From contig JANVFP010000017.1 of NCBI GenBank assembly GCA_027919835.1, forward strand, positions 992,001-1,056,000: DNA of 64,000 bases, written 5' to 3'. Positions 22,831 through 59,347 of the stretch are shown in pieces (positions within the stretch are counted from its first letter, which is position 1; each line of letters starts with the position of its first letter). Under the pieces are notes generated by a model. That model was not told where the DNA came from. It saw only the letters and a list, made by a program, of their open reading frames with translations, and did no database searches. Origin of the DNA: Lentinula raphanica (taxonomy: Eukaryota > Basidiomycota > Agaricomycetes > Agaricales > Omphalotaceae). The translations under genes and the position numbers were made by a program.

Positions 22831-23010
22831 TATGTTTCGTCCCACCATGTTCGTCGTCCCACTCTGGATCACCCTCCATCCTCCTCGCATGCGCCAATTC
22901 TCCTCCTGAGGTCTTCGCCGCTCCGACCTCTGTGCGGCCAAACAGGAAGGGACTCGATGATTCAAACGATGGGATTCCGAGTCGTGGCGGGCCTGATGAT
23001 GGAAATCGGG
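22831..23010 (+). pseudogene. Family S relic S1
   Basis: Starts like S2 with ATGTTTCGTC at 22831. A one-base insertion (CTCCATCC versus CTCATCC) shifts the signal-peptide frame, which then stops. The following AAPTSVRPN-RKG-L coding is still recognisable in another frame. The copy ends about 60 codons in, at the duplication junction, so exons 2 and 3 are absent. Confidence 0.8.
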
Positions 23011-23633
23011 ATGAGAGTGGGGGAAATGTATTTCTTTTTTTTTTGCATTCTGTATGTTGTGCTGTTTTGCTTATTTTGGGTATGTAGGACTTTTGCTTTA
23101 GAACAGTGTATACCCTTCAGTGACTTATCCATGAACCTTTTACGCCTACGTCCTACGGAATTGACGATTTTGTATGATTCACCGCCTTTCACGGCTCGGA
23201 ACGTTGAGCGTTGAATTGTTTTATTGTTTCGCTCATAGCGAGTTTTCATCCTCGTCTTCAACAACAGTCCAACGGACTCTTCATATATTCGTGATCAGTG
23301 AGTTACTGATATATGTCCTCAGTTCTCCTCGCGTTCTCTACGATCCTGCATTACACGAGATATCATTGCCACTCATTTTGGCGCTCGCTGAAGGCTACAA
23401 ATCTAACCTCATTTAAGAACCAAGACTCGAGTATGATACTATTCCGGTATTCTGCCTTGAACCTCCTTGAACCCACCCCGACTCCGTCACGATACCTTGA
23501 TATCAGATACTTACCGTTCTATTTTTGCGCGCAAATCCGTTTCAAGGATAAGGCCGCAAAAATCACGGTTATCTTCCTCTTCCTCTCTCTTCCTGAGCTC
23601 TCTTACTCTTCTCTTCCCTTCCAAGGTCCTTTT

Positions 23634-23647
23634 CTCAGAGCTGGTCT
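23634..23647 (+). promoter_or_regulatory. Family S initiator-like box of S2
   Basis: CTCAGAGCTGGTCTC-type box 51 bp upstream of the S2 start. Further upstream is GGCCGCAAAAATC in place of a clear TATA box. S1 has the same pair (box at 22768-22782). Confidence 0.55.
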
Positions 23648-23697
23648 CAACCCCTCACACAACCGTGACAACTCACAAAACCCTCCTTCAATTATCT

Positions 23698-25091
23698 ATG
23701 TTTCGTCTCACCACGTTCGTCGTCCCACTTGGGATCACCCTCATCCTCCTCGCATGCGCCATTTCTCCTGCTGAGGTCTTCGCCGCTCCGACCTCTGTGC
23801 GGCCAAACAAGCGGGGACTCTATGATTCAAGCAATGGGATTCCAAGTCGTCCTGATCGTGATGGTTTGGCATTGTCGACATCGACGCCAGTGGTGCGCGC
23901 TGGATATCGTCCAGTCCAAGTCTATGACCATCACCCGACTTCTTCCGATTCGTCTTCCACTCCTTCCACTCCTTCTGACACTGACACTGGCGCTGGCGCT
24001 GGTGCTCGGGACGATCATGATGGAGATTTCGAGAATTCGAGCGCTGGCCAAGCAGACAAGCGGGAGCTGCTCGTCTCCGTTCCGTTCCTCGACAGTCCTA
24101 GTCCGGTCATTGTACATCCGCGTCAAGAGAATGATCCACGTGTGAGTCTTGTGAAGCCATACTATCGTAAATCTATGATTGATGATTGTTTCTGTTTCCT
24201 AACGATCACATGCAGCATCTAGCCGAACTCAATGTCAGCCCTTCTTCTCTCAACCTCTCTTTCATCCAGGTCGTATTCTGACGAATTCATTCTTTCTGGT
24301 AACAGGAAATGATGGAATCCAAAACGACAAAGCTGTCCAAGGGAGCGGAACAGATGGAAATATTGCATAAGGCATTCATTGAATGGGGCAAGAACGATTT
24401 ACTTTCAAAGAACTCCGACTACATCGATTATGTGCTGGCGTTTTGTGCATTGACCATCGGACCAACGAGGAAATGGCTTCAAGAGGCCAGACAGCTCCAC
24501 AAGGATTACCAGGAGGGTCGAACAGTACTTAAACCGACAATGGACACTTTCATAGGGATGATCAGCATATGTGAAGAACAAAAAAAGTTGCATCCAAAAA
24601 CGCATGAGGATGTAGTGCGCAAACTCGGCCTGCGGGAAGCCCAATCTGCATCCCGGAATGGCCAATCCGCCCACCAGGATGACCAACCTGCCCAACCTGC
24701 CCACCGGGATGACCACTCTCCCCAGGCTGGCCAATCTGTTCACCGGGATAGCGAGCCTGCCCAACCTGCCCACTGGGATCGCCAAACCACCCAGGAAAGC
24801 CAACCTGCCCAACCTGCCCACCGGAATGACCTCTCTCCCCACGCTAGCCAATCTGCTCACCGGGATAGCGAGCCTGCACAACCTGCCTACCGGGATGGCC
24901 AAACCACACAGGAAAGCCAGTCTGCCCAACCTCCCCACCAGGATAGCCAATCTGCTCACCGAGATGGCCAACCTGCGGGCCATCAGAATGGCCAATCGCC
25001 CCTCCAGAATATTGAATCTGTCCTCCGGGATGGCCACCCGTGGACCCACCAGGACAGCCAATGTGCCAACCAAGACGGCCATTCTTGTTGA
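23698..25091 (+). CDS. Family S member S2, secreted protein with repetitive tail
   Basis: Exons 23698-24141, 24216-24233 and 24306-25091 give 415 residues. Residues 1-30 form a signal peptide (FVVPLGITLILLACAIS, cleavage near VFAA/PTSV). The spacer is Ser/Thr/Asp-rich, with a dibasic QADKR site that Kex2 could cut. Exon 2 is an 18-bp microexon. Exon 3 carries the helical two-cysteine block: AFCALTIGPTRKWLQEARQL to ISICEEQ, with 41 residues between the cysteines. Unlike other members it then has about 150 residues of His/Gln/Asp/Pro-rich repeats. Predicted extracellular; function unknown. Confidence 0.75.
24640..25088 (+). repeat. In-frame degenerate repeats encoding AHRDxQPAQP-like units
   Basis: The tail of S2 is built from 15- and 30-bp-related units such as CAACCTGCCCAACCTGCCCA and ACCGGGATGGCCAA. 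They encode QPAQPAHRDD, QSVHRDSEPAQPAH and similar. The periodic composition also leaves the opposite strand open for 225 codons, which is a by-product and not a gene. Confidence 0.8.
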
Positions 25092-25944
25092 AGATATGCA
25101 GGGAAATCCTGATTCATCATCTTTCCTTCTTCTCTTCGTCGCTTCGTGTTGACCTGCTTATACTTTTAACGTTGGACAGTCATGTTCTCCTCGTCCGACG
25201 GTTTATGATTTTTACTTTCACTTTAACTTTAACTTCTATCTTTTTTCCGAATATTTATTCTGTCACAGCGTTTTCACTGCACTCAGTTGAACTAGGTTGA
25301 ACTTCTTCAATCGTATAGTACTACCGTCGCTCAATACTCGATGTGGCACTTTCTCCGTCGAATCTACAGGCCCACCGGAATTAGTACTGACAGAGAGTTT
25401 GGTTCGAGATGTATAAGGATGTATATCTAGGAATCAGAATCCTAATCAATTTTCGATGGACTCCCGGGCCAGTCTTCGAACGTCCTCAATGGCTCTACTC
25501 CAGTAGATCCTCTGTTTCAATGTGGCATACATTTTTGATATCTTGGTACTATTACATCGAAGCTGAGTACTGCTTATTCGTGAATCGAGTATTAGCTCAC
25601 TGGGCTGTGCCAAATTCCAATCATCATCGGATCCGTTCCCTTCCGTTCCCCGTACTCTCCTCGGACTCCACCAGCTGGTTGATATGATGCCTCGAAGGCT
25701 ATGAACCGTTACCCACCTGGCAACATATATAGGACTTGAGCACCTCATGACATCACATCAAAAATTGGGAGAAACTTTTCATCAAGCCACAAAAATCAGC
25801 AAAAATCACGCCTCCACTTTCGCCTACTTTCGCTCCCTCGGGCCTCCAAAGTCCTCCAATTAACCTCCAACAAGTTAGAGCTGATCTCAACTTTCTCAAC
25901 TTCAAGTCCCCCCACAACAATCGAAAACCTTCCTTCGATCATCT
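25092..25944. other. Spacer between S2 and S3 with the S3 promoter
   Basis: The 3' UTR of S2 and then the S3 upstream region. The initiator-like box here is TTAGAGCTGATCTC at 25875-25888, with CCACAAAAATCAGCAAAAAT upstream instead of CATAAAA. No coding frame is supported. Confidence 0.5.
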
Positions 25945-26760
25945 ATGACTCTTCGTCTCACTGTGCTCGTTGTCCCACTTGGATTCATCTTCATTCTTCT
26001 CGTATCTGCCATTTCTTCTGCCGAGGTTCTTGCTGCTCCAACCTCCGTGCGGCCAACAATTTCGAACGATGGTCTTCTGAACCATCGAGACAGCTCGGTG
26101 CCAGTGGTTAGATCTGGATATTGTCAAGTCTATGACCATGACCCTTCTTCTCCTCCCACCCCTTCTACCACCGGTAATGCTGGTCATGGTGGTGATGATG
26201 GTTTCGAAGAGTTGGCTGGGAGTCACAACGCTGCCGAGCGACTGAAGAGGAGCGAGATATCTTGCGGGACATTTTCCAACAGTCTTCCAATTATACATGC
26301 GCGTCAAAATGGTGTGCCAGTAGTAAGTACCAGTCTGGTCATAAAACCATGCCACCGTCAATTAATGACTCTTCACATGCAGCATAAACTCACAGATGAA
26401 ATGAACGAAGTCAGCCCTTTTTCTACCTCTCTTTCGCCTATGCCGCTATTGACCCATTGAATTGTTCGGGGACAGAAAACCCTAGATGGTATTAGGAAAA
26501 GGTCGGGCGAACTACAACCCAAGATTGCTAGATTGTATCGACTCGCAGAGACGATGTCCAGCTCGAAGTGGGAGCGCAAAGCTTTGGAGTTTTGTGACAG
26601 ATACTTTGTACGGATTCACCAGCTCCGTATAGATGCCAGAAATCTTCGTGATGTATATCCGGCGGCTCGAGAAACAACCGACTCGGTCATAGATGACTTG
26701 AAGATACTGGATGAGGAATGTGAATATATCTTGACTAGAAGGCGAAACAGGAATTCGTAG
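25945..26760 (+). CDS. Family S member S3, secreted two-cysteine helical protein
   Basis: Exons 25945-26322, 26383-26409 (27-bp microexon HKLTDEMNE) and 26476-26760 encode 229 residues. The signal peptide VLVVPLGFIFILLVSAIS ends near VLAA/PTSV. The spacer contains RSGYCQVYDHD, Pro/Ser/Gly-rich sequence and a dibasic RLKR site. Exon 3 is a helical block with LEFCDRYFVRIHQLRIDARN to ILDEECEY, 41 residues between cysteines, ending RRNRNS. Intron 2 starts GTCAGCCC, as in most members. The upstream AGAGCTGATCTC box and whole design match S2 and S4. No known domain recognised; extracellular location is inferred. Confidence 0.78.
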
Positions 26761-27047: not shown

Positions 27048-28009
27048 ATGATTCGTCTTAGCCTTACAGCCGGTGTGCTCATCCTCCCACTCGAAATCAT
27101 CTTCGTCCTTCAACTCGTATCTGCCAATTCTCGCAATACCCAGGTCTTCGCTGCTCCAACCTCCGTGCGACCACATAAGATGGAATATGATTCGAGCGAT
27201 GGTCCTCCAACTCGTTTTTTCGATGCTTCGAGGCCAGCGGTGCCAGTGGTTGACGATAGAGCTGGATATTTTGAAGTTTTTTCTGTGCGGCCAAATCAGA
27301 TGGGTTATGATTCGAGTGATGCCAGTTTTCCGAGTCGTTCTGATGGTTTGGGACTGTCAATGTCAGCGGTTAGAGCTGGATATTGTCAAGTCCATTGGCA
27401 TAGCCATAATCATAATGGAGATTCGGATAGCTTCGCGGCCCATTCAGAGAAACGCGAGGAGGTTTTCCATACGCTCGTCGACAGTCATCCGATTATACGT
27501 GCGCGCAGAGTAATTTCACCGGTAGTAAGTTTCTTCAGTTTCGTGAAGCCGTCATTAGTAACGAATATGACTCGTCCAATCTAGCATAAACTCACTGACG
27601 AGATGGACGAAGTCAGCCCTGTTTCCCTCTCCCTTTCGTCTACTCTGTAAACTCATCGATCTTTCGGAAACAGAAAACCCTACACAACATCACGGCAAGG
27701 GGCAGCGAGCTAAATCACGAAGTGATTGAAATGGAGCTTCTCCGAATGGGCCAACCAGAGAACTCGGAAGATTGGAACCAAGCGATCTCTGAATTTTGTG
27801 AAGATCACTTTGCACCGATGCATCAACTCCTCTTGGATGCAAGAAGACTTCGCGGCGTATATCCGGCGGGTCGAGAAAGGATAGACGACATAGTTGACAC
27901 TTTTAGAAAAGTGAATGAGGAATGCAAACAACTCAAATCGTCTCGAGAGGGAACTACTTCATACGGTATGCGTCTATCCACTGCGCTTGAATGGCACAAA
28001 GCTGGATGA
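27048..28009 (+). CDS. Family S member S4, with duplicated spacer module
   Basis: Exons 27048-27524, 27585-27611 and 27674-28009 encode 279 residues. The signal peptide (ILPLEIIFVLQLVSA) ends near VFAA/PTSV. The spacer holds two copies of one module, SVRPHKMEYDSSDG...RAGYFEVF and SVRPNQMGYDSSDA...RAGYCQVH, an internal duplication not seen in S2 or S3. A dibasic SEKREE site follows. The microexon reads HKLTDEMDE. Exon 3 has SEFCEDHFAPMHQLLLDARR to KVNEECKQ with 41 residues between cysteines, then a basic tail. The box TAGAGCTGGTCTC is at 26975-26988, about 60 bp upstream of the start. Predicted secreted; function unknown. Confidence 0.77.
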
Positions 28010-28260: not shown

Positions 28261-29123
28261 ATGCCGCATGCGCATAGTGCGCATTCGCACACGGACTTTC
28301 CTTCGCCTGTAGGTTCGTGCCGAATCGAACAATTTCTACGCGACCAAAGGCGGTCAGTGACCACTGGCTGTCACCACTGCCCGTCGATAATCATTTTCGC
28401 TTTTCTTGCGTCCATTCTTTCTCCTAAGGGAGTCTTCGCTGCTCCGACCGCCGTCAACAGAATGGGACTCAATCTTTCGAGTCCTTCTACCGCCCGTGGT
28501 TTACCGGGATTGATGTTGCTCGCCAGGACCGGAGCAGGATATTACCAGGTCGATGTTCCCTCTTTTTCTCCTTCTGCCACCGATGCTGTTATCCGTGGCG
28601 ATCCTGGCGAAGAGGGTATTAGCGGCGTTGAAATTTTCAACCCTCTCCTCAAGAATCATGCGACCACACACGAGCGTAGACCTCAATGACCAGTAAGTTC
28701 AAGAGCTCTCTGAATCCATGCCAATTGCCGATCAAGATTATTCATTGCACAGGACTCAAAACCGCGGAGAATGACATGAACAAAGTTAGCCCTCTTCCCT
28801 ATCTTTCTTTCTGTCCTTTCGTTGAGTTGAGTATGTATCTGAACAGCAAGACCTAGCACGTATCGAAAGAACGGCAAGTTCGCTGCAAACGGACATGAAC
28901 GATACTCGTCATACGTTGTATTTGGAGATGTCCGAGGACGACCCAGATGCGGTTGTTTGTGAACGGTACTTCGAGCGGATCCAGGATACTCTTGCAGAGG
29001 CCAGAAAACTACGCGCACACGGTGTATCCCGCCGGTCGAAAAAGATTTGACGCCGTCATAGATACGTACAGCGGTGAGCAGAGGAAGTGTAAGGAACTTT
29101 TGACTACGCTGGACATGATATAA
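28261..29123 (+). pseudogene. Family S relic S5
   Basis: The signal-peptide tail (IIIFAFLASILSPKGVFAAPTA) and spacer (GAGYYQVD) are recognisable, but the normal start is gone. A TGA replaces a sense codon just before the intron 1 donor (HERRPQ, stop, PV). Exon 2 (ENDMNK) and intron 2 donor GTTAGC remain. Exon 3 has VVCERYFERIQDTLAEARKL, then a one-base shift, after which VYPAGRKRFDAVIDTYSGEQ and RKCKELL continue in another frame to TAA at 29121-29123. At least two independent lesions mean it is dead. Confidence 0.8.
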
Positions 29124-31831: not shown

Positions 31832-32550
31832 ATGACACGTTTCACGTTTGCGCTTATTCTCGTCTTTCTCGCGTTGACAATCGCTCCTGAGATCCTTGCT
31901 GCTCCGATCTCTGTGAGGCGCGGTTCGAGAGACGATGGTCTTCTTAGTCGTCGTTTTCAAACCGGGCCTGAGAAGTCGAACGCTACTATTCCTGAACCCA
32001 CGCCGTTCCAGAGGATGACGGATTTTGTGAGTGTATAGGTTGTTTGAAATAGTAGTATCTTCAGCTAATGAGCTTTTCTTTCAGTCTGAGACACTCATGA
32101 CTGCTTCAGAAATGTCAGAGGGTTTCGGGGACGGCGGTTATACAGCGGTTAGATTTAGCCTTGTTTCTGTTCTCCCTCTTTGTGGTTGATGTGATTGTTT
32201 GAGTACAGGAAGCCTTGAAGAAGTTCGCTGAGAAATTCGATAAGTTCAGGAAAGAGCAGTTAGACCTGGCTCTCAAAGCGAATGACAAGGAGAAGGCACA
32301 TGAAGAAATTCTCTCGTTTTGTAAATCGGACAAGCGAGATCTTAACCAGGCCAAATTGGACGCTAAAACACTGTTTGGCATCATTGACCAAAACGAAAAA
32401 CACGTTGCTCAGGCATGCCAGGAACAATATGAGTGGCTCTACAACGAATGTGTTCGTTGGGAATCTGGCAAGGACGGAACATCTGGTGAGGACGGAACAT
32501 CTGGTAAGGACGGAACATCTGGTCAGGACGGAACAAAGAAATCTGGATAG
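31832..32550 (+). CDS. Family S member S6, secreted helical protein
   Basis: Exons 31832-32026, 32085-32147 and 32209-32550 encode 199 residues. The signal peptide TRFTFALILVFLALTIA ends near ILAA/PISV, followed by dibasic VRR and LLSRR sites. Exon 2 has 21 codons. Exon 3 is strongly helical and charged: KKFAEKFDKFRKEQLDLALK, then SFCKSDKRDLNQAKLDAK to LYNEC, 42 residues between the outer cysteines plus an extra Cys. The tail is four units of SGxDGT encoded by an 18-bp repeat at about 32466-32537. Its 3' UTR word (TAGCGAGGTTCAACAAGCC) is shared with S7 and S8. Unknown function, predicted extracellular. Confidence 0.8.
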
Positions 32551-33713
32551 ATGCCATAGTGTAGCGAGGTTCAACAAGCCAAGTTTGTTCGATTCATGTA
32601 TGTACGTGGTTGCAATCCAAGTTAGAAAGCGCTGGTCCGCAATTTTTTCCAGTTGAAGGAATCTCCTGGAATCACTTGACCCTTTCTTCCTTCGTCCTAA
32701 CCATTTCAGATCATATTTTGCAGTTGCTCGGCTGTCACCGCTGTCCTTTTGAATGGAAAGTTTCGACATTTGAAAGATGTACATATCATCTATCTCTTCC
32801 CTTCTCTTCCATCCGTCGCCAACACTTCCGTGACACTTGGCCAATGTTTGGCCTGAATTTGGCTTCGTAAATCGTTACCCAACCGACGCTCTTCGACCTC
32901 GAGATTCACTCAACTTCATAGCTCATCCGCTCGTCAACATGTCAGCCTTTCACGACAATGACTGTACGGTCTGGAACGCTGGATATTGCCGCAGCTAACT
33001 TGAAGGACGATGGCCGTGCTGATCTCATCTCACGAGGAAACCTCCAGTACTATTCCTTCACGTCTGCATACCACCGCGGCTTTTCTTCATCACCCGGGCG
33101 TAGTCTCCCCTAGGCAGACTCTCGCAAGACAAGCTTGCTATGTTAGAACCCGGGCGCAGATCTACAGTCAATGCATTCGGAGAATTCCCTGAGTTCGATC
33201 AGAGTTCGATAGACTTGTCGGAAACGAGACTGTATGGCCTCGTCCAGCGCTGGATAATTCCTCCTCACCAGAGTATGTGATCTATACCCTTCTATACCAC
33301 TTATTATTGTCCGTTCAATTTTTTTCTGCATATCTAGGCCCTTAGACTTTGAATGCCAAGGTTCAAACAGCAGGTTTATGTCGGACATGATCATCGTCAT
33401 CCAGGCTCGGAGACCAAGTCGAGTCGTACCGTGTACATACCATCGTATCATCTCGGATTCCATCCTCTGGCTCAATTGTCAGCCAAGAAGTTAGAACAGC
33501 CAGAGAGGCATAAAGACTACAAGGAATGCTCCCTACATTCAGGGCTCTTGAACATGACCAACATTCCACCTTCGGTCATACCGAAGGATCAAGAATGACA
33601 ACTATATTAGACTAACAGCCTCTAGTACATATATCTGCACAGGAGATCAGAGATTGATAGAAAACTTGATGATGGTGCCATAGGGTGCCATCGGCGCCAC
33701 CATTGGGTGTAAG

Positions 33714-34671
33714 AGGACCCCCGGCAGCCCACCGAAATGTTTGCGCCCTCAGAGGACCCGTGATAACACACCCAAATGTAGTGCACAAATTCGTACAAAA
33801 CACCCCCCGATTTTGGCAAAATCCCGTATACAAGTTCGTACAAAACACCCGCCGATGGCGAGAGGCCGGAGAGATTTTTCGTACAAAAGGGACCCAGATT
33901 TGACGCTAGAAGTCTGGATTTCAGTCAAAGCAATCGTCCGGAGACAGGCAGAGAGCGGTACGCGATGAATATCATGATGATTTGCATGTAATTTCGCTAA
34001 CTTAGACAACGTTTAGGACCATTGAGGGAGGGTAGGGAAGGTTTCGGAAAAAAATTGGCGAAAACTAGAGGGCGTACACAAGTTCGTACAAAATGACCCC
34101 AAAAATTTGGTGCCAGGTTCGTACAAAACAGGCCAGTTTGAGGCCATTTTTGTGTATGACATCTGGGTGTATTATCACGGGTCCTGCCCTCAGATGGTCA
34201 TTTTTACCCGAACGAAAAATCAGCTCAAAATCGCCATTTTTACCCGAATTTGACCCAGGGGTTGCAAGAGACCCCATTTTTACCCTAATTTTGGTCCCAG
34301 ACAGAGAAAATTTCGAAAAATGAGCACGAACAATAATATAGTGAGGATAGGAGCACAATATCTATGAGATGTGCTCATATTCCTACAAAAGTCATGCCTA
34401 GAACATTACTGATATTGCGAAGAGGTTATAGTGACTACTATTTCTCCGCCTGGGACCTAGGGTGCATGGATCGAACCTTCGACCTAGCACCATTTTTACA
34501 CGAACGTACAGTCAGAGCACTCCAAAACCCTCATTTTTACCCGAACTTAGGCGCGGAGATTTCAAAATTTTTGGGCCATTTTTACCCGAACTGGGCGCTG
34601 ACTTTGTCTCAAGAAACCCCCCATTTTTACCCGAACGCGAACAGGGATTTTGGTGGGCTGCCGGGGGTCCT
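33714..34671. mobile_element. 958-bp non-autonomous hAT-like element
   Basis: The ends are AGGACCCCCGGCAGCCCACC and its exact complement (20 bp perfect). They are flanked by the 8-bp direct repeat GGTGTAAG at 33706-33713 and 34672-34679. An 8-bp target duplication is the hAT signature. Inside are many copies of two short words: GTTCGTACAAAA (about five, mostly in the left half) and CATTTTTACCCGAA (at least six, mainly in the right half). Such subterminal repeats commonly bind the transposase. No transposase frame is present. The matching position in the paralogous copy near 37245 lacks the element. Confidence 0.88.
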
Positions 34672-34679
34672 GGTGTAAG

Positions 34680-35445: not shown

Positions 35446-36161
35446 ATGACACGTTTCACGTTCGCGCTTATTCTCGTCTTTCTCGCGTTGTCAATCGTTC
35501 CTGAGATCCTTGCTGCTCCGATCTCTGTGAGGCGCGGTTCGAGAGACGATGGTCTTCTTAGTCGTCGTTTTCAAACCGGGCCTGAGAAGTCGAACGGTAC
35601 TCTTCCTGAGCCCTCGCCGTTCGATAAGGTGAAAGGGTTTGTGAGTGTATAGGTTGTTTGAAATAGTAGTATCTTCAGCTAATGAACATTTCTTTCAGTC
35701 TGACGCTCTCAATACTACTTCAGACATGGTACATGAGTTGTATGATCAGGGCGTTCATGACCACACAGAGGTTAGATTCAGCCTTGTTTCTTTTCTCCCT
35801 CTTTGTGGTTGATGTGATTGTTTGAGTACAGGAAGCCTTGATGAATTTCGCTAAGGTATTCGACAAGTTCAATAAAGAGAAGTTGGATCTTGCTATCACA
35901 GCGAAGGACGAGGAGAAGGCACATGGAGAAATTGTCTCGTTTTGTTCGTCGCACGAGCAAGATCTCAACCAGGCCACAAAGGACGCTAAAACACTGTCTG
36001 GCACCATTGCCAAAGACAAGAAATTCATTGTTGAGACATTCCAGGAACAATATCTGGCGCTCTACAATGCATGTGTTGACTTGAAATCTGATCAGGACGG
36101 AACGAAGAAATCTGATAAGGACAAGAAATCTGATCAGGACGGAACGAAGAAATCAGGATAG
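35446..36161 (+). CDS. Family S member S7, close paralogue of S6
   Basis: Exons 35446-35640, 35699-35770 and 35832-36161 encode 198 residues. The first 46 residues (signal peptide, AAPISVRR, LLSRRFQTGPEKSN) are almost identical to S6. Exon 2 differs strongly (SDALNTTSDMVHELYDQGV). Exon 3 has FAKVFDKFNKEKLDLAI, then SFCSSHEQDLNQATKDAKTL to ALYNACVD with 42 residues between cysteines, and a Lys/Asp-rich tail of repeated SDQDGTKK units. Exon 1 and introns are conserved while exon 2 and exon 3 change, which suggests diversifying selection on the mature part. Predicted secreted. Confidence 0.8.
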
Positions 36162-37981: not shown

Positions 37982-38634
37982 ATGACACGTTTCACGTTTG
38001 CGCTTATTCTCGCGTTCCTCGCGTTGACAGTCGCTCCTGCGATCCTTGCTGCTCCGATCTCTGTGAGACGCAGTCTGAAAGACGATGGTCTTCTTAGTCG
38101 TCGCCAGCCTGATGGCTCGGGAACCAATGGGTCTGCTGGTTCTGAGCTCACGTTCGAAGAGATGGCTGCATTTGTGGGTGTAAAGGTTGTTTGAAACAGT
38201 GGTATATTCAGCTAATCAGTACTCTCTCTTCCCATCAGTCTGGACAGATTGAGAACTCTTCTAACATGGTCGAGGGTTCCATGACGGGCGATGGTACCAC
38301 AATGGTATATATAGTCTCGTTTCCTTTCGTCCCTTCAATTTTTGTGGTTGACGCGATTGTTTGGGAACAGACAGACTTGAAGGGACTCGCTGAGAAATTT
38401 AGTACGGCAAATCAGAAGAACTTGGTAACTCCGGTGAAAGACAAGGACGAGGACAAGACACGCGCCGCCATTAGCACGTTTTGTACGAATCACCTGTCGG
38501 ATCTCAAAAAGGCTAAATCGGACGCTACAGAGTTGAGCAACGACAAAGAGTCAGGCCAGACTGAAAATGCTGCATTAGCGACCACGGTCACGGCGATATA
38601 TGCCTGGCTCGTTAAGGAATGTAAGAAGTACTAG
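37982..38634 (+). CDS. Family S member S8
   Basis: Exons 37982-38173, 38239-38304 and 38371-38634 encode 173 residues. The signal peptide TRFTFALILAFLALTVA ends near ILAA/PISV, followed by VRR and LLSRR dibasic sites and a Gly/Ser spacer. Exon 2 has 22 codons. Exon 3: LKGLAEKFSTANQKNLVTPV, then TFCTNHLSDLKKAKSDATEL to WLVKECKKY, 45 residues between cysteines. It lacks the C-terminal DGTKK repeats of S6 and S7, but the 40 bp after its stop (GAATCTGGTCAGGACGGAAC) still resemble them, so a stop was gained. Predicted secreted. Confidence 0.78.
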
Positions 38635-41044: not shown

Positions 41045-41701
41045 ATGACTCGTTTCACGTTGGCGCTCTTTCTCGTCTTTCTCGCGTCAACAATCGCTCC
41101 CAAGGTCCTCACTGCTCCGATCTCTGTGAGACGTGATCCAAGAGGCGACTCTGGTCTTTTGAGTCGTCGATCTCCGGATTCTGCTGGTTCTGGGCTTACC
41201 CTCAACGATGATATATCAATCTTTGTGAGTGCGAGGACTGTGCGAAGCAATGGCATCCAAGCTAATGAAATCTTCCCTCTTATCATTAGCCTGCAGTTGT
41301 TATGGATGCTACGACAGCTGTGGGGGATATGTCAGCCCAGCTGCACGATGCCAAAGCCTCGGATTCTGATATGGTCAGCCTTATTTTTGTCTCTTTTAGA
41401 TCTCGTCGCTGACTCATTCATTCGGGAACAGGATAGCCTTGAGAAGAAGGCTAACGACATCCTGTCGGCGGCCAAGGCTGATCTGAAGCTGTCTGATTTC
41501 AAGAAGGCGCAGGACAAGCCGAAACTACTTGCCAAGTTCTGTTCCGAACACAAACAAGGCCTTCTCGACGTCAAAAACACCATTCCGACCGTGGCCAACA
41601 AGGAAGCAAGCGTGCAGCATGTTCCTGAGGATGCTGCCCAGGTTGTGCCCGAATTGGAGTGGCTCTTGAAGGTTTGTGATAAAGTGGAAGCTCTGCAATG
41701 A
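41045..41701 (+). CDS. Family S member S9
   Basis: Exons 41045-41224, 41290-41373 and 41432-41701 encode 177 residues. The signal peptide TRFTLALFLVFLASTIA ends near VLTA/PISV, then VRR and LLSRR dibasic sites. Exon 2 (28 codons) reads PAVVMDATTAVGDMSAQLHD. Intron 2 begins GTCAGCC. Exon 3: SLEKKANDILSAAKADLKL, then KFCSEHKQGLLDVKNTIPTV to WLLKVCDK with 44 residues between cysteines. The end is EALQ with no repeat tail. The 3' UTR has the shared TAATGTAGCGAGGCTC word. Unknown function; predicted extracellular. Confidence 0.78.
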   Translation: MTRFTLALFLVFLASTIAPKVLTAPISVRRDPRGDSGLLSRRSPDSAGSGLTLNDDISIFVSARTVRSNGIQANEIFPLIISLQLLWMLRQLWGICQPSCTMPKPRILIWSALFLSLLDLVADSFIREQDSLEKKANDILSAAKADLKLSDFKKAQDKPKLLAKFCSEHKQGLLDVKNTIPTVANKEASVQHVPEDAAQVVPELEWLLKVCDKVEALQ

Positions 41702-44369: not shown

Positions 44370-45129
44370 ATGACTCGTTTATCGCTCGGGCTCATCCTCG
44401 TCTGTCTCGCATCGACAATCGCTCCTCAGGTCCTTGCTGCTCCGACCTTTGTGGGACGCGGTTTGGGAGATGATGTCGCTCTGAGTCGTCGTGTAATGCC
44501 TGGCAGTCCAGGATCAGCGCAGGGGTCCGATCCTTCGCTGTCTACCATAGCCCAAACCATAGTGAGTGGAGGAATTGTGTTTTGCAATGACATCTTCAGC
44601 TAACAAATACCATTAGGACGAATTATCCGAGCAGTCAATACCAAAAGCAATGGCAGATATGGACAAGCTACTAGTGCAGAAGGGCCAAACAGATCCTGTA
44701 ATGGTCAGCCTTTTTTCGCCTTTCTTCAACTTTGTTCCGTAGTTGATTTGAGTTTGGGAACAGAGAAAACTTACAGTCGAGGCTAATGCATTGCGTCTGA
44801 GGAACAAGCTCATCTTGGATCCCGCGATACAATCGGGTGACAAACAGAAGATCTCTGCCGCAGTTGCTAAGTTTTGTTCCTCGGGGCCGGGCGGTTCGTC
44901 TTCTCTTACCGAAGCCGAAAGCTTCGCTCAGCAAGAGGCCCAAAACAGCCGTAATACACCAGAGGTTGTTGCAAAAGCCGCCCAGCTTGTGGCTGACTAT
45001 AAGAACCTCATTCAGTTTTGCCAATTATTGGGACATGTGTCGGAAATTTCAAAAGTCGCTGATCAGCGGCAATCAGCGCTCATAAACCCATTTTTTCGGA
45101 AGTCGCTGATAATCGGCCGTCAGCGTTGA
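44370..45129 (+). CDS. Family S member S10 with an acquired C-terminal tail
   Basis: Exons 44370-44561, 44617-44703 and 44764-45129 encode 214 residues. The signal peptide TRLSLGLILVCLASTIA ends near VLAA/PTFV. Exon 2 has 29 codons and intron 2 starts GTCAGCC. Exon 3: RKLTVEANALRLRNKLILD, then KFCSSGPGGSSSLTEAESFA to LIQFCQLL, 47 residues between cysteines. In other members the protein ends within a few residues of the last Cys. Here about 32 extra residues (GHVSEISKVADQRQS onward) come from inserted DNA that begins near 45033. The normal S-family 3' UTR is found 3 kb away at 48166. Predicted secreted. Confidence 0.72.
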
Positions 45130-48260: not shown

Positions 48261-49216
48261 TCAATGCTTACTATTATTTAGTCTATCTGGGCACTGGCGA
48301 TTCGGCTTGAACTCTGTTACGTTGAGCACCGTCAGCTACCGTCAGCTACCGTCAGTGTGCGATTATTGATGAGCGCTGAGCCCTCTTCCACCCCCCTCCC
48401 TCCTCCCCTGGCCCCCAGCCTCAATCAATGAACAATCGTTTCCTCTTCAGCAGAGTACATACATTCAAGATTCCAGTGGGCAGTGGGTATTGAAGCATCC
48501 TTTAGACCTGCAGTCTTTGCTAGAGCATTATCTACGAACCGTCTATTATACTACTAAACTCTCACCGGGGCTTATCGGAGTCGCTCAAGTGTTGGATCTG
48601 CCAAACGTTGAACTTAGCTCGTTCAGTCGGACACTGTGCCACTATCCTGCCAAGTCCCAGTGCAATGAGCCCCATCCTATGTAACATGACTCGGAGGAAA
48701 TTATCAATGTCATACGGTTACCTTTGTGGTATAAAAACCCGAGTGTCGTTCAAACTCTTCTCTTCTTCCAGGCCATATACTACACGAGTGATGAATCCAT
48801 CTTTCAGCTTCTCTATCTGTCACTGTTATCGCTTATTGGTTTATGAAAACTCTTCAACTCACAATGATAATTGACCGACGGTTGCTGAGACAAGACGCAA
48901 TGCCACGATCACAGCTTGACGGGGCGTGAATCATTGGTTCGTTTGAAACAGAGACTAAGTCGAACAACAAGTATAAGCCTTCTTCAACATGTTAATGAGT
49001 ACTATGATACTGATAATCCAAAATGCTCACTGCTCGTCAGTTCCCATCTTGCATACACATCAAACCCACCAGGGATCGCCGCTTTTGATTCCTCCCCTTT
49101 GGAGCAGGTCTCCTCAGCACAACCCAGCACAATCATCGCGACCACCTCCTTGGAGTCAGACCGGAAGTTCCCTCCATCTCACACCCGAGGTCCAGAGTCT
49201 ATCGAGAATTGAGATC
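48261..49216. other. Spacer upstream of S11
   Basis: Contains three tandem copies of ACCGTCAGCT near 48328, a TATA-like GGTATAAAAACCC at 48729 and a diverged GGAGCAGGTCTCCTC box at 49099. The TATA box is far from the box, so the S11 promoter looks rearranged. No gene seen. Confidence 0.4.
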
Positions 49217-50021
49217 ATGATCATTCTATTCCTAGTTATGACCCACCTAGTAACTGTCTTCTTCCTCTCCCTTGGAATCGCGTCCATTGTTCTTGAATTC
49301 GCCTTTTCCCTCAAAGTCCATGCTGCTCCGACGCCTTTGGGATATGATTCGATAAATACCCTTCCAAGTCATTCGAATCCTCGGGTCTATGTTGACGTCC
49401 CTTCTTCTTCTTCCGATGGTGCTGGCACCGGTCATGTTCATGGGAGAGAGGTTGACGCTGCTCGGCCTGAGCCGCATGAGGGATTTTTACACACCATCCT
49501 CGACGACAACACTCACGCGATTATATGTGCATGTCGAGAAGCTTTACCGGTGAGTCCGTGGATATCTATGATTCTTGTAAAGCCCTCCGAACTCATGTTT
49601 CTGGCCTCCTCCCTATGCTGATTCGGTCACGCAGCAAGAACCTACATATGCAGAAAGAGTGAGCCTTTTCTTTCCCTTCTTTTTGTCCTCAACACCCGAG
49701 TACATACATCCAACCAACTCATTCCTCACGTGAAGATCACCCTTCAGAAAATCAGATCCAAGGTCCACAAGCTCCATCTCGAAGAGGTCCAAGTCCGGTC
49801 AATAACAGACCCAGAAAAGCACCAGCGTGCGCTCAGACAGTTTTGCCTCGATTATCGGACAGAAATTGAAAAAGGCGGTGGAGTATCGATCAATATATCG
49901 GGGTAATAGATTGGTTTGGGAAACTCTGCCCGGTGTGATAAACGGTTTGAGTGAGACGCGGAGAGGGCGTTGTGCGCCGTTCATGGCAGACGCGAGTGAT
50001 GGAGGATATGAGAGAGGTTGA
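49217..50021 (+). pseudogene. Family S relic S11
   Basis: Exon 1 (49217 to about 49551) is open: a hydrophobic start (THLVTVFFLSLGIASIVLEF), VHAAPTPLGYDS, a Ser/Gly spacer, HAIICACREALPV and donor GTGAGT. A microexon QEPTYAER and a last exon (KIRSKVHKLHLEEVQVRS, then RQFCLDYRTEIEK) follow. One base in the A-run at about 49871 shifts the frame and stops it; the other frame continues AVEYRSIYRGNRLVWETL to RGRC, which restores the spacing to the second Cys. Either a recent pseudogene or a sequencing slip. Confidence 0.68.
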
Positions 50022-51000: not shown

Positions 51001-51367
51001 GAGGAATTCAAAGACGAGGAGGAGAAAGGTGTGTGAATTTTGCGGCCTGCCGGTGCGGTCCTGTGCGGTCGTCGTTGATGACCAAAAATCGTGAACGTGG
51101 CTTTCTCCTCGACGACGACAGCAGCCCACCAACAGCCTACCGCGGTCCTACACGAAAGAGCTTCAAAACTCAACATGAATTGATACTCACCGTTCACCTA
51201 TCCCCTCTTAGTTCTCTTCAATGGCAGGACTCGAAGTCTCTTGAAGCTTGACCACTTGTCTGGCGAACGAAATATTAGAATGATATCTCTGCCACTGGTG
51301 CAAGAAAAATATCACATGTTCGTTCCGAAGTACTCACTGGCCTCAGCATCGGATTCTGGTGAGGCGA

Positions 51368-52175
51368 TGAACAAATTTCTCTCCTCCTCCTCGTCTCAAT
51401 CTTCTCGTCTCCATCTTCCGTCTCTGGATCGTGCTCATCTTTCTCGCATCCGCGAGTTCTCCTATCGCTGCTCCGACCTCTCAAAATTCTGCATCGACCA
51501 ATTCAGTCCTATCAATGGCCCTTCTCATTCTCCAAGTCCTTTAGCAAGTCCGAAAACAAAGATGACGCAAAGGTTAGTCCAAAGCATTTCTTCGTTCTAT
51601 CATACCAGTGCTGACTCGCCATTCATGATGTTTCCTATCGGTGTCACTACTAGCCTCCAAAGAAGGTCCACTGGGAGGATGGAGAGACTACTGGCAAGCA
51701 TACGGGTGATGTCGCCTCATTGGTAAGTCTCAAAGTTGTGAGCAAAGCAGTAGGCACGTTCAACTAATGGGACTATAGTCTGACAGTAAGAATGCTGGGA
51801 ACGTCGCCGATTATCTCAAAGGGAAGCTGGACAAGTCGTCGCATCACGAGAAAGTGAAACATCAATTATCTATCTTTGTCAGTTGAAACTCATCGTTTGG
51901 GGCAATAGGACGACCAGTATATTCCTGAGGTTGTGTCTGAAGCCGCCGCACTGTATAGCCCATTCCGTGCAATTGGTTCCATTCGAAACCGAGAAGAAAA
52001 GAAGCGTTCTCAGGAGGAATTTTGTCACAACCACTATCAAGATATCATCGAAGGGCTTGGCAAGCTCAGAATCCTTGAAAATGAGATACAAGAACATAGA
52101 TTTCGGGAGATGGTTAAAAAGTTAAGAATCGAATACATACAGAAGTCTGTGTTGTCAAAACTTTCACGTAGTTAG
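51368..52175 (+). pseudogene. Family S relic S12, promoter fused into signal peptide
   Basis: The signal-peptide core is in one frame (FRLWIVLIFLASASSPIAAP) but has no ATG in that frame. The upstream promoter word GAGGCGATGAACA, which in S13 lies far upstream of the TATA box, is joined directly to it, so the TATA box, 5' UTR and start were deleted. Exon 2 (SDSKNAGNVADYLKGKLDK) and exon 3 (DDQYIPEVVSEAAALYSPF, then EEFCHNHYQDIIEGLGKLRI, ending KLSRS at 52175) are open with good splice sites. The second cysteine of the family is absent. Possibly still translated from ATG 51368 in a different frame, but not as a normal member. Confidence 0.62.
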
Positions 52176-53144: not shown

Positions 53145-54095
53145 ATGAATCGTTTCAAGCTATCCTTTGTCCTCCGTTCTGGAATTGTCCTCATCTTTCT
53201 CGCATCCACTATTTCTCCTGCCACTGAGGCCCTCGCTGCTCCGATAAATTTTGAGTCAAAGCTTCAGTGTCTGCCGAGCACGTTCTGCTTCCTCAAGTTC
53301 TCCTGCGGGGATGGCAAGGAAGAGACCAATGGGGCCGAGAAGGCTGTCCCTGTCCCTTCTCCGTCTGACGCTTGTAATCATCAGGTCCACATTATCTCTT
53401 CTTCATCTACTTATGCCAGTGCTAATACTACAGCTCAGGTCCATAGCAATGTCCCTCCTTCTGCTGCCATCCCTGCTGGTATAAAGACTTCAAAGACAAG
53501 CTCTTCTGTTCCATCTGCCGGTGGCAGTCGTGCTGTTCCTTCATCTGTAAGCCTCAGAGTTGTGTGAAAAATTATGGGCACACGAATAATATGTGATTGC
53601 TTTTCAGTCTGTTACTGGCAACTCAAATAATGGAAACGTCGTAGAACCGGACCCCGGAAGGAAGTCAAGACCTACTAAAAAGGTAAACCTCTCTGTTCTC
53701 TCTTCCTTCCCTTTTTGAAAGAACTAATGAGTGGGAGACAGTATACCCTGAACATGCTTCAAGATGATACCAGCGCCCTCAAAGAAATCTTTACAATCAT
53801 TCCTGGATTTTGGGAAGAGAGCCAAGTTCTGATCTTTGACAATTCGGAGCAGCGGTTTCAATCTTCCAGTGGAAAAAAAAGGTGCTTCAAATATGGTTCC
53901 TACATCATTAAAGTGCGAGAAAAGGGTGAGCTTCTTAGATCCAGTGTACGTAGGACTCAGGACGAGAAGATGAGAATTCGATACCTCCTTTATGAGGTGG
54001 GAAGGGTTTTTACTTATTGTCGCCACTATTACCCCAACATGATGCATGCAACGCCTGGTACTCCTAGAGAGTATTGGGCGAGTAAATCACCTTAA
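53145..54095 (+). CDS. Family S member S13
   Basis: Exons 53145-53546, 53608-53682 and 53742-54095 encode 276 residues. The signal peptide SFVLRSGIVLIFLASTIS ends near ALAA/PINF. Close behind is a cysteine cluster (LQCLPSTFCFLKFSCGDG) that S16 also has, then a long Ser/Ala/Thr-rich spacer that is likely glycosylated. Exon 2: 25 codons, ending GRKSRPTKK. Exon 3: YTLNMLQDDTSALKEIF, then KKRCFKYGSYIIKVREKGEL to RVFTYCRHYY, 44 residues between cysteines. It is more basic than the S6-S9 group. Predicted secreted or wall-associated; function unknown. Confidence 0.76.
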
Positions 54096-54762: not shown

Positions 54763-55388
54763 AACCTAGCATGCATAAAAGCCGCTAGGGATTGCATTTC
54801 TTTCCCCTACTCAGAGCTGGTCTCCATGTCGCAGCGCTTCGCAAGTCTTCACCATCTTCCCCAGCGGCCTGGTCCTCCATTGGTAAGTCCCAGAGTTGTG
54901 CAAAAAGCAATGCGCACTTCCGACGACTAATGTGAATTCTGTCTTAGTCTGTTCTCAGTAGTAAGAATAAAGGACAACTTGAAATCGCCCAAAACTCCAA
55001 AGCCGTTTCGGACAAGGTGAACCTCTCTATTTTTTTCGTTCCTTCTCGACGGAACTGATTATTTGGAGACAGTCACCTCGCGAGCTGGAAAAAGAGGCCG
55101 CCGACCTGAGGAGAGATGTTGATAATTAGAAAAGTTGTGTCTCTGCACGACTTTTGGACAAAGGCTCGGAGCAGGTCTATCATGGTCGGACGATTTGTCA
55201 GTGACCGCCATGATATCATCACATTGCGACAAAAGGCTCGTTCTCTTCTATCCTCCTTGCCAAATGTTCCTCCACAAAGAGATTCGAGGATGGGCCGTTA
55301 TCTTCTCTCCTTCTTGGATGTGACCCCACAAATGGCAGTCATCACGACTCGCGGGAGAGTTGAGTGCCATCGGCCCTGGCCAAGCTAA
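54763..55388 (+). pseudogene. Family S relic S14, signal peptide deleted
   Basis: The promoter is intact (CATAAAAGCC at 54774, TCAGAGCTGGTCTC at 54811). The 5' UTR then runs straight into the end of exon 1 (CGGCCTGGTCCTCCATTG, donor GTAAGT), so the signal peptide and spacer are missing. ATG 54826 lies in the remnant and gives MSQRFASLHHLPQRPGPP. Exon 2 (VLSSKNKGQLEIAQNS) and intron borders survive. Exon 3 stops after RRDVDN; helical coding continues in another frame. If made, the product would not be secreted. Confidence 0.68.
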
Positions 55389-56015
55389 ATGAGGTTCATA
55401 GGTATTGTCACGAATGCATCCCCGGATTGTTTCCCGTGCAAATACTATGTACATAGTAAATGAAAAGTAGTGTCCAAGGTGGGCTGAAATCCGAAAAGGT
55501 GGTTTCAAAGTAACGATAAAAACCATCTCAGAGTCCGACGTCTCCTTACATTGTGTCGCCTACCCAACCATTTGCTGAGGCGGCCGTATTCTCCTTCCTC
55601 CTTCCCCTGACAAGTCTGTCTCTGAATTCTTCCAATTTCTTCGAGCTTCTTCGTCGGTGATGATAACTGCTTCGGATAACTGGTCAATTCCGTGGGAGAA
55701 ACCGGCTAACGAAAGATAAGCACACGGCCGGCCGCGGTGTCCTATAACTGATACAACCACCTGAGAGCCGAGGCTGTATTCGCTGCAGCAAATCTCAGTC
55801 ACCCGCCAACCCATCTTTATCGTCTAACATTCTGGACCATCCAGCCTCGAATACCGCGGCGCGGGTCCTTGAAGAACCAGTCAAACCGTGAATAAATCCA
55901 TGTTTACCTTGGCCAAGTGCCAATTACTTATCTTATCTAGAATAACACCACATGTGCGTTACAGCCTTTCAGGCTGTCTTGGAGCACTCAGCAGATCGAC
56001 CCTGTCGAGGCGATA
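55389..56015. other. Spacer between S14 and S15
   Basis: No supported gene. A minus-strand frame at 55560-55814 has no recognisable domain. The distal promoter module of S15 starts near 55948 (CACATGTGCGTTAC). Confidence 0.45.
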
Positions 56016-56861
56016 AGCACAACCATAAAAGCCACAAAGGCTCGCGTTTCCTTTCCCCGTTTCAGAGCGTCTCTTCAAAACTCATCGCCGTCCTCTGTCT
56101 TGTATGATTCTATCGAAAGAAAAAAAATCTATCACTGATGAAAGCTCGTCCTTTGCCAATTCGGGATCGTCCATTTCCTCCTCGCATCTGCCACTGGTGA
56201 CTGAGGTCCTCTCTATTCCTCGCAGCTCCGATACGTGGAAACTCGAGCAAAAAGGACCACCACACCGACGGTCCACGGACCAAGGCCCTTCTCAATTTTC
56301 TCCAACAGGTTTGAACAGGTTTGAACTTTGGAAAGCAAGTTGACGTGAAGACTGGTCCGCAACATCTCCTCTTCTTCACTTGTTGCAACCTGTGCAAGTA
56401 CTGACTCGTCAGTCTACCATCGGCCACGGTGCTGGGTCTCAAAAGTTGAAACGCTTGGAACGTTGTCGAACAGTTCTTACATGAAGGGAAGCTGGGTTCG
56501 CATTCGAATGAGAAGGTGAACCATCGATTTCTTCTTCTCTCTCAGTTGTACTGATGTTCATTGCAATAGAGCAGGGCGGGGACTCGTGTTTATGGCCGCC
56601 GAACTGTATAGCAGATTAAACGCGATTCTTAACATCCATGCCCAAAAGAAGAAGGGGCGTTCCGATGAACAGATCTTGACCCGCCCGACCACCACCGAAA
56701 GATCATCGATGAGCTTCATAAGTGACAAACATCCTGAACCTGCTGCGACTCAACGTATATTTCGTTCCAACCTCAAACTTGAGAGAACTCTAATCCATAC
56801 ACAGGTTGGACAAGGTGCACTTGAAGTATTGCCAACAAGAATACTACCCGGAACTATGTAG
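56016..56861 (+). pseudogene. Family S relic S15
   Basis: CATAAAAGCC at 56024 and a decayed TTCAGAGCGTCTC box at 56061 are followed by a decayed signal-peptide region (GGATCGTCCATTTCCTCCTC, then GCATCTGCCACTGGTGACTG, then CGCAGCTCCGA). The frame is broken by stops from the start. The region 56540-56861 resembles exon 3 (the GCCGCCGAACTGTATAGC word matches S12) but has several stops. This is the most degraded full-length copy. Confidence 0.65.
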
Positions 56862-57560
56862 CGCTGTAGACATTGAGCAGGTTGAAATTTGCCTCAGAAC
56901 CTTATGGCCTAGGGTTTGACCGTAGAGCAAGTTGCAACCAATTCGTCTACAGAATCGCCAAGTACGAGACGAAGTTCGCGTTCTAGGAACTGCCCAGCTA
57001 ATTCTTTACAAATCGTCTCCGCATGTCGAACGCAAATAACTTTTCAGACAACGAACGCATGTGGAGAATGAGTCAATAATGTATGTATTGTGACCAACGA
57101 CGGATGGCTTATGGTGCGTAGCAGCGCATTAACGAGAAGCATACGCACTGATCACAATCTGCGCGCAAAACAGTGTCTTCATTTGACACAACATGCAATG
57201 TACTGCATGGTACGACCTCGTATGACCTGGAAGAAAACGCAAGCGACGCTGAGCGAAATCCCTTATTAGTAGCATCTCACACTGCTTCACGGATCACAAG
57301 GCTTAAATTCGAACTTGACCACAAGTATCCCTCAAGTCATTGGACCGACACCCAATCATCTTACATCGATTACATATGACGTGAGCGTCAAGAGACGTCT
57401 CGCCAACCAAGTCCTTGAGAGTTCACAAGTTTTCTTGAAACATGGCATATGCGCACAGGACGTTTCGGAGCATACCCCGTTCGGCGTCAAGGCGATGAAC
57501 GAAAATTTGAAATATCCCTCATCGCCCCGCTTCACCCCGCATGACCCCACAAGGAACATA
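56862..57560. other. Spacer between S15 and S16
   Basis: Contains the dispersed word GATCACAATCTGCGCG at 57150 and a diverged distal promoter module near 57478-57505 (CGTTCGGCGTCAAGGCGATG). No gene. Confidence 0.45.
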
Positions 57561-57607
57561 AATAAAAAGCCGCTGGGGATCACGTTTCCTTCCTCAGAGC
57601 TGGTCTC
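57561..57607 (+). promoter_or_regulatory. Core promoter of S16
   Basis: AATAAAAAGCC at 57561-57571 and CTCAGAGCTGGTCTC at 57593-57607. Confidence 0.62.
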
Positions 57608-57711
57608 CTTACAACGCATCGTTGAACCCTTTCCTCGTCTTGCCAATATCGATTGAAGCAAAGAGCCGTTCACTGACAAAAGCTCTTCCAACTACAAATT
57701 CCCTGTCCAAT

Positions 57712-59347
57712 ATGATTCGGCCCGGATCGCTCCTCTCCGTCCTTCGTTTTGGACTGGTCATCCTCTTTCTCGTATCCGCCATTTGTCCTCCCACTGAGGT
57801 TCTCGCTGCTCCAATCTCCGCTGAGATAGAAACTACATGCCTGGGCTTTTCCTGCTGGTTTGGATGCGCGGGAAATGGAAAGAAGAAAGATGGCGCGAAG
57901 GCTGACCCTTCATCTTCTGATGATGGTGCTTGTGCCCAACAGGTGCGCAATATAGCTTCTTCATCGTCTTCAGTCAGTACTGACGCTACAAAGGTTGTAA
58001 CTAATCCCCCTTCTCCTGCTCCCATGATCGCTGCCGTCCCTCAGACTCCGAAGACGGTCCAGCGGGATTCTTCTGGCGGTCCTAGTCATGGAGTTGGAGG
58101 CAAAGCGCATAACAAGAATCCCGACGATGTTCCTTCATCAAGAAAGCCCGGGGAAAAGGTCCAGAACGTTTTTTCTTTTTCTACCGGCGGTACTAACTTC
58201 CTTGAAGGTTAACAAGGTCCCTTCTTCTATCAAATCCGCTAACGGTGCTCAGGCTACACAAGAGGGGCTCCCACAAGAACGGCCTACACGACAGCAAGTC
58301 CTCTCTAAGGATAAACCTTCCAATTTGGTAAGTTCCAGATGAAAGGTCTACAACGTCGTCTCTTATGCAGGTACTGAACTCCTTCGAAGGATAAAGAGGC
58401 TACCGCCTCTTCCAAAGTCGCTGCCTTTAAGAAGGTCCGATTTGAGGATACAGGTAATCATGCTGCTTCATCGGTAAGTCCCTGACAACATGTTTACGAC
58501 CTCTCTCCAGCCGGTACTGACTCTTCTGAAGAATCCACCAGTCTCTTCTGTTGGTGCCCCTTCCCGTACCACGGATGAAGAAAAGCGTGTCCATTGGGCG
58601 GACGGCGTGAGGAATGTTCCTTCATCGGTAAGTCACGGACAAAAGCCCGTAATGTCTTTTCTTGAGCCCGGTGTTCTGACTCCTTTCAATTTTGATATCC
58701 CTTCTCCTGCTGCCGTCGGTGCCGGTACTACAAAAAAGGTCCAGCAGGGCTCTTCTGTTTCCCCTGCTGCTGGTCGCAGTGGAAAGAGGGTACATCCGGC
58801 TGGTGATATTATCACGTCGGTATGTGTGAAACACCTTGTTGGTTACATTCAGCTGATGTGAACTTTGACTGATCTCATTCTGCTACCAAGAAAAACCTTG
58901 GTGAAGGTGTCGCGAAAAATTCTGATGTGGAGTCGCAAGATCAACTGGTAAACCTTCTACCCTTCCTTTTCCACGATTGAAACTGATTGCTGACAGTTTA
59001 CTATCCGGGAGAATCGCCTAGTAGCAAAAATCGACAAACTTTATCAGGCGTATACAACACTTCCTGGAGCTTGGGACAAATGCAACACCGCGGAGAACCA
59101 GCCTGCCCTCATGAACAAAAACGCAGACAAGAACGTGAAGCTCCAGAAGTTTTGTTCCGAAAACCATGAGAAGATCGAAAATTTGTTGACAGAGGGCCAG
59201 TATGTTCGGGCTGCCTTAGTTCTGGATCGAAGGCGAAATTGGATGACTCTGACGCATCTCAATCTGGACCTGCATAAATTAACCGAAATCAGCGATTATT
59301 GTAACAAATTCGATATCAGCTCAGTATGTACCAGTTCAAAATTGTAA
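57712..59347 (+). CDS. Family S member S16, expanded to seven exons
   Basis: Exons 57712-58158, 58208-58327, 58390-58473, 58532-58627, 58739-58819, 58891-58947 and 58997-59347, all phase 0, give 411 residues. The signal peptide FGLVILFLVSAICPP ends near VLAA/PISA, followed by a Cys cluster (CLGFSCWFGCAG) as in S13. Exons 2-5 are Ser/Lys-rich and arose from repeated copying of one exon-intron unit: recurring TCATCG-GTAAGT donors and GGTACTGACTCCTTCGAAG branch-plus-acceptor words. The first copied donor is mutated (GGTAAG to AGAAAG), so a shifted donor at 58159 is inferred. The last exon has KFCSENHEKIENLLTEGQ to ISDYC, 48 residues between cysteines. Without splicing, intron 1 stops the frame at 58212. 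Confidence 0.68.

Follow-up and report, generated by a model that had tools for sequence, protein, structure and literature searches.

What could sixteen neighbouring copies of a secreted-protein unit, resembling no described family, be doing in the genome of a mushroom? The question is raised by a 64,000-base stretch of DNA from Lentinula raphanica, a shiitake relative of the Omphalotaceae, Agaricales (C17:992001-1056000 of an assembly of 49.06 Mb in 75 contigs; hereafter the window), in which sixteen homologous units, S1 to S16, lie at 22.8-59.3 kb, all on the plus strand. Our preferred answer, to which we give a probability of about one half, is that the array is one cluster within a superfamily of secreted pre-pro-proteins that is restricted to this species and diversified for biotic interactions in wood. 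A preliminary description of the window had taken all sixteen units for genes of a single 36-kb family. The homology was borne out, but ten units look intact and six (S1, S5, S11, S12, S14 and S15) look like relics, and the array does not stand alone, being one of many in the genome. The S copies arise by tandem duplication, some of them dying as relics.

We built three-exon models by hand for nine units (S2, S3, S4, S6-S10 and S13). All 18 introns are 55-74 bp long and in phase 0, and exon 2 is as short as had been described, at 18-87 bp. In all nine models the last exon carries a pair of cysteines spaced 42-48 residues apart, within the 41-48 previously given; in S16, however, the spacing is 49 (counted by eye). 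The first cysteine is preceded by phenylalanine (FC) in nine of the ten intact genes, S13 having RC instead. Additional cysteines occur in S6, with one between the conserved pair, and in S2, with several in the tail. The signal-peptide ending A-P-[IT]-S-V, earlier held to be common to the members, was found in S2, S3, S4, S6, S7, S8 and S9 (TAPISV in S9) but varies in S10, S13 and S16.

An AlphaFold2 prediction for S7, run with 14 relatives, gave a mean predicted local distance difference test score (pLDDT) of 72.0 and a predicted template modelling score of 0.58. It places a low-confidence leader at residues 1-51, followed by a four-helix bundle (helices at 58-81, 87-112, 116-147 and 150-177) with pLDDT block means of 81-95 over residues 61-170. 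The turn that joins helices 3 and 4 lies midway in numbering between the conserved cysteines, residues 127 and 170, which makes a disulfide across this hairpin likely. A protein from the array on C6 was likewise predicted to have a low-confidence leader and then an all-helical part (mean pLDDT 66.2), with a helix pattern that differs from that of S7; a structure search with it returned no good match. The dibasic pairs KR or RR occur within residues 25-110 in 24 of 47 proteins, compared with a shuffle mean of 14.8 and a maximum of also 24 in 500 shuffles, and may mark Kex2-type processing of a pro-like leader. We also considered precursors of Kex2-processed repeat peptides (dikaritin-like) and rejected them: the mature domain is single-copy in the nine models, and the repeats of S2 have no KR between them (by eye).

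The absence of a described family, claimed at the outset, held up in searches. No Pfam family scored above its curated cut-off in 22 proteins (nine from the window, five database relatives and eight models from other arrays, two of them partial), and a sequence search of the PDB gave a best match of only E=0.11. A profile built from eight of the window proteins, S2 and S16 being left out, returned 17 database matches and one of five proteins from other arrays returned 30, all of them from L. raphanica; scoring in both searches was confined to the approximately 8,000 candidates with the most words in common. A control search with the AIP3/Bud6 gene that flanks the array (59776-62751, minus strand) gave 544 matches, and the 120 listed include L. 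aff. detonsa, L. aciculospora, L. lateritia, Rhodocollybia and Gymnopus. Since AIP3/Bud6 is long and conserved, this control establishes the presence of such species in the database and does not tell whether a fast-evolving relative would have come up. The S array is a cluster of a seemingly species-specific superfamily of secreted proteins.

A core element and leader across the genome

In seven of the nine three-exon genes, the 12-mer AGAGCTGGTCTC lies 61-133 bases upstream of the ATG, the exceptions being S3, with one mismatch (AGAGCTGATCTC), and S8, with a poorer variant. Genome-wide, we found 235 exact copies, compared with 4 for the reversed control; with a preceding C, the counts are 177 and 0. 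Allowing one mismatch added 283 sites against 264 in the control (totals of 518 and 268), only about 19 more, so nearly all real copies are exact.

To see how often the element heads a leader, 51 of the 235 sites were tested, 41 outside the window and 10 inside. A signal-peptide-like start follows within 260 bases at 42 of them, compared with 109 of 3000 random draws, a total that still counts draws skipped for landing near the motif. The nine misses comprise the relics S1 and S14; L025, L028, L035, L042 and L048, in which a leader visible by eye narrowly fails a criterion; the second site of L055, where the stretch ends too early; and L061, which shows no leader. Under a looser criterion, 15 of sixteen further sites have a leader, the remaining one being L069. 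A TATA-like word stands 60-15 bases upstream of the motif at 35 of the 51 sites, 32 of them at 33-38 bases (random, 7.3%). These positions suggest that AGAGCTGGTCTC marks the start of transcription.

The sites are clustered. Among 99 positions (of 100 listed from the 235), 67% have a neighbour within 15 kb, compared with 11% for random placing over an assumed 25 Mb. Models from arrays on C6, C7, C11, C15 and C16 often show a leader of the type '..LAAPTS', phase-0 introns and a helical last exon, with exceptions that include phase-1 introns on C11; judged by eye, their mature parts show no alignment to those of the S family. Pairwise identity among twelve C6-type database proteins averages 80% over the signal peptide and falls to 61% in the pro part and 20% in the remainder. 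Last exons with FC and a second cysteine recur on C3 and in a C7 array, where one of two neighbouring genes has both cysteines. Judged from these models, the window array is one of many with a common core promoter element and leader.

Some sites depart from this layout. At L036-L038 (C3:989-1003 kb) and at L064, L072 and L073 (C16), AGAGCTGGTCTC heads a second type of protein that begins MVHSRSVL, MVHSHTVL or MVYSHT and is long, of low complexity and partly rich in proline or histidine. L062 (C15:1234 kb) joins the family leader to about 16 five-residue repeats (by eye, 12 of GP[MT]EE and 4 of GAAEK). L032 ends in CTMM and L058 in CTIL, CAAX-like endings that are odd for proteins bearing a signal peptide.

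Exon divergence and probable exchange between loci

The tandem copies S6 and S7 show the contrast most clearly. Their introns are 96.6 and 96.7% identical, while exon 2 is 58.7% and exon 3 79.1% identical. Upstream, the 300 bases before the ATG are 86-99% identical by bins, the signal part agrees at 87 of 90 bases and the next 20 codons at 60 of 60. The divergence halts at the stop codon: the first 400 bases of the 3' flank are 97.2% identical, and the first kilobase agrees at 877 of 912 aligned bases. A constraint on introns would not account for the likeness of this flank. The preliminary description had extended it to the whole array, where it is weaker in more distant S pairs.

Synonymous sites share in the divergence. 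For S6 and S7, the proportions of nonsynonymous (pN) and synonymous (pS) differences are 0.40 and 0.39 in exon 2 and 0.22 and 0.25 in exon 3. Counting only last-exon codons that keep the same amino acid, we found 10 of 40 synonymous differences for S6-S7 against 13 of 457 noncoding (p=2e-6), and comparable excesses for each gene against a copy on C3 (S6, 10 of 34 against 23 of 437, p=3e-5; S7, 7 of 28 against 26 of 447, p=0.002) and for the L029-L030 pair on C1 (20 of 27 against 7 of 71 in the intron alone, p=1e-9). In these four close pairs, last-exon synonymous divergence is 4-9 times that of the noncoding sequence compared. As selection on the protein alone leaves synonymous change unraised, the pattern is not simply one of nonsynonymous exceeding synonymous divergence (dN/dS >1).

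The C3 copy is a mosaic. Its signal part is S8-like (2 of 90 differences, 5 informative sites), its introns and 3' flank are S6/S7-like (4-7% different, against 22-32% to S8), and the 20 codons after the signal part resemble none of the three. This points to exchange between loci. The sequences fit best with an exchange among copies that maintains likeness in promoter, leader, introns and flanks but leaves in place mature exons that are older and divergent; conversion tracts would then have to respect exons as short as 63 bases.

Between strains, we made ten comparisons, setting aside the identical database proteins P0001 and P0004. In P0014 and P0010 the last exon deviates, a probable consequence of differing gene models. 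P0008 (strain FB446) shares 30 of 30 signal residues with S8 but only 6 of 22 in exon 2 and 42 of 83 in exon 3; P0009 (F5880) has the S8 signal part letter for letter and shares 6 of 22 and 45 of 83. Either may be an allele or a paralogue of S8. The contig of P0008 has 35,195 bases, the same size as that given for the FB446 counterparts of S4 and S13.

Gene models and individual units

Five models match database proteins exactly: S7 (P0001), S8 (P0004), the C3 copy, L032 and L051. The identity of S7 and S8, exon chains included, to database models indicates that the array is more than chance. Of the grounds that the preliminary description named for its own refutation, a strong match to a known domain did not turn up, and these two exon chains are borne out by the database. 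For S2, S3, S4, S6, S9, S10 and S13, no identical protein was present among the database proteins returned; close relatives of S4, S6 and S13 occur in other L. raphanica strains. P0046 and P0047 diverge beyond the start from our models of L054 and L053. A simple gene predictor returned eight of the nine three-exon models at the setting used, a result that is not independent, its training set having consisted of the window S models and three long open reading frames.

All units below are on the plus strand, and window coordinates are used. The core element of S2 is an exact copy at 23637..23648; the other exact copies start at 22771, 26977, 31699, 35313, 40915, 44242, 53029, 54813 and 57596, variants stand at 25877 and 49101, and none was found on the minus strand of the window. 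S2 (23698..25091; exons 23698-24141, 24216-24233 and 24306-25091; 415 residues) has an FC...C spacing of 42 and a C-terminal tail rich in tandem repeats. S3 (25945..26760; exons 25945-26322, 26383-26409 and 26476-26760) encodes 229 residues and S4 (27048..28009; exons 27048-27524, 27585-27611 and 27674-28009) 279, with close relatives of S4 in three other strains (P0006, P0007 and P0014). S6 (31832..32550; exons 31832-32026, 32085-32147 and 32209-32550; 199 residues) and S7 (35446..36161; exons 35446-35640, 35699-35770 and 35832-36161; 198 residues) are followed by S8 (37982..38634; exons 37982-38173, 38239-38304 and 38371-38634; 173 residues), which has an S6-like tail still readable 3' of its stop. 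Further along are S9 (41045..41701; exons 41045-41224, 41290-41373 and 41432-41701; 177 residues), S10 (44370..45129; exons 44370-44561, 44617-44703 and 44764-45129; 214 residues) and S13 (53145..54095; exons 53145-53546, 53608-53682 and 53742-54095; 276 residues), the last with relatives P0010 and P0012 in other strains. S16 (57712..59347) is longer, multi-exon and probably intact; its start and last two exons (58891-58947 and 58997-59347) are secure and its middle exons uncertain.

The relics are damaged in different ways. S1 (22771..22985) keeps the motif and a signal peptide split over two frames, with no further exons recognised, and S5 (28390..29105) has a leader without ATG and a last exon split over two frames. 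S11 (49101..49906) is a probable relic, with an open leader and a last exon that stops shortly past FC. In S12 (51367..52175) the leader is broken and a last exon with FC is recognisable; S14 (54813..55390) keeps the motif and lacks the leader, and in S15 (56064..56920) both are damaged (S11, S12, S14 and S15 assessed by eye).

Other features share the window. An HMG-box gene (4705-6312, plus strand; Pfam E=2e-9) lies upstream of the array, and a stretch of recurring short words (33700-34670, by eye) separates S6 from S7. Downstream of S8 is a near-perfect tandem repeat (39255-39522; 15-base unit, 17.9 copies, 99% matches). A broken P-type ATPase gene (45464-46837, minus strand) stands between S10 and S11, with an E1-E2 ATPase domain in one frame (E=2e-10) and matches to HAD, under cut-offs, in another.

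Weighing the explanations

We propose that a TATA promoter drives each gene, with the near-invariant element marking the start, and that the product would carry, after a conserved signal peptide, a pro-like leader that is disordered and often has a dibasic site, and then an all-helical mature domain, in the S family a four-helix bundle with helices 3 and 4 probably stapled by the cysteine pair. Tandem duplication would supply copies, some of which decay; close copies would probably be held alike in promoter, leader, introns and flanks by gene conversion or unequal exchange, and selection for diversity may keep the mature exons different. The proteins would most likely serve as a repertoire deployed against other organisms in the wood, or perceived by them, whether competing fungi, bacteria or small animals. 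We favour this role by analogy with other large, clustered repertoires of diversifying secreted proteins, which serve contacts of this kind: venoms are one case and the Hessian fly genes (PMC2955719) another.

Several results weigh against this proposal. The dN/dS ratio, which the preliminary description had wanted measured exon by exon, does not exceed one in the mature exons of S6-S7 but is about 1 in both exons 2 and 3; it is below one in exon 3 of S3-S4 (dN 0.60, dS 1.64), and only exon 2 of C3-S6 leans higher (pN 0.40, pS 0.13), so there is no direct evidence of selection for amino-acid change. The flanks of L029/L030 differ by 22%, above the 10% of their intron; the L065 tandem pair on C7 differs by 6% in exon 1, 30% in introns and 33% in the last exon; and the contrast is slight in L057/L058. 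Six of the ten strain comparisons (P0006, P0007, P0003, P0002, P0005 and P0012) give 89-97% identity in exons 2 and 3, so change is not extreme at such depth. No structural relative of the S7 model stood out, four-helix bundles being common.

Could the proteins instead mark individuals and be recognised by other mycelia within the species? Such allorecognition would be consistent with between-strain variants such as P0008, but the likeness of most strain counterparts argues against it, the annotated part of the window showed no receptor partner, and more than 200 sites far exceed the requirements of the known recognition loci of fungi; we consider this role unlikely. A structural or matrix function in hyphae or fruiting bodies, with helical parts drifting under weak constraint and a common promoter giving high expression, predicts the dN/dS of about 1 in S6-S7 and agrees with the common core element. 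Relaxed constraint alone, however, cannot give synonymous divergence 4-9 times that of introns, and the cysteine pair and helical fold are kept, which leaves this function distinctly improbable. We would put no higher a dedicated diversification system, in which renewal or mutation of mature exons, synonymous sites included, would far outpace the neutral rate and stop at the boundaries of the coding sequence, the element and leader staying near letter-perfect across more than 200 loci; if true, it would be the equivalent, in a fungus, of the repertoires used in venoms or antigen variation. That the array is neutral debris, decaying duplicates with little function, fits the six relic-like units of sixteen, but it seems very unlikely given ten open multi-exon genes (S16 partly modelled), an element near-invariant genome-wide, a conserved cysteine pair and a confident fold. 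Effectors acting on living plants would also be small, secreted, orphan, clustered and diverging, yet L. raphanica is a wood decayer with no living host evident, and we regard this last role as extremely improbable.

A conserved leader and introns with divergent mature exons, in a pre-pro-mature layout, are known from the phospholipase A2 genes of snake venoms and the conopeptide genes of cone snails. The L. raphanica set shares that pattern; the venom genes are of animal origin and have other folds, the cone-snail products being small disulfide-rich peptides. The closest known pattern is that of the SSSGP salivary-gland genes of the Hessian fly, which appear to work alike without implying membership: they form tandem clusters with conserved promoter, untranslated regions, signal peptide and intron and a diversified mature coding part, for which the authors propose homogenisation by recombination (PMC2955719). 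Noncoding sequence and leader more conserved than mature exons were likewise found in S6/S7, S6/C3, S7/C3 and the intron of L029/L030, but not in the L065 pair and weakly in L057/L058. Moderately diverged SSSGP members have dN/dS above one, in contrast to about 1 in S6/S7, the closest Lentinula pair, and exon-respecting conversion posed a similar puzzle for the Hessian fly authors in the same text (PMC2955719). Unlike the SSSGP genes as described there, the L. raphanica set is fungal, is predicted to form helical bundles and has a single near-invariant element whose genomic sites exceed the control by 231; our profile searches matched L. raphanica only, and no direct comparison with SSSGP sequences was made. 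Aphid bicycle genes are rapidly evolving putative effectors recognised better by gene structure than by sequence (PMC9168663); they are other proteins from another organism. Fungal small secreted proteins are mostly below 300 residues, orphan and equipped with a signal peptide, and the portions of the account available do not describe for them a common core promoter and leader over hundreds of sites (PMC7105643).

Hundreds of venom-like secreted genes would be unexpected in a saprotrophic edible mushroom. Patterns of this kind are usually read as plain positive selection, an interpretation called into question by the synonymous excess in the exons. The common 12-mer offers a handle for counting members, tracking them by RNA sequencing and comparing strains, and with it the purpose of the orphan small secreted proteins of mushrooms becomes testable in one species.

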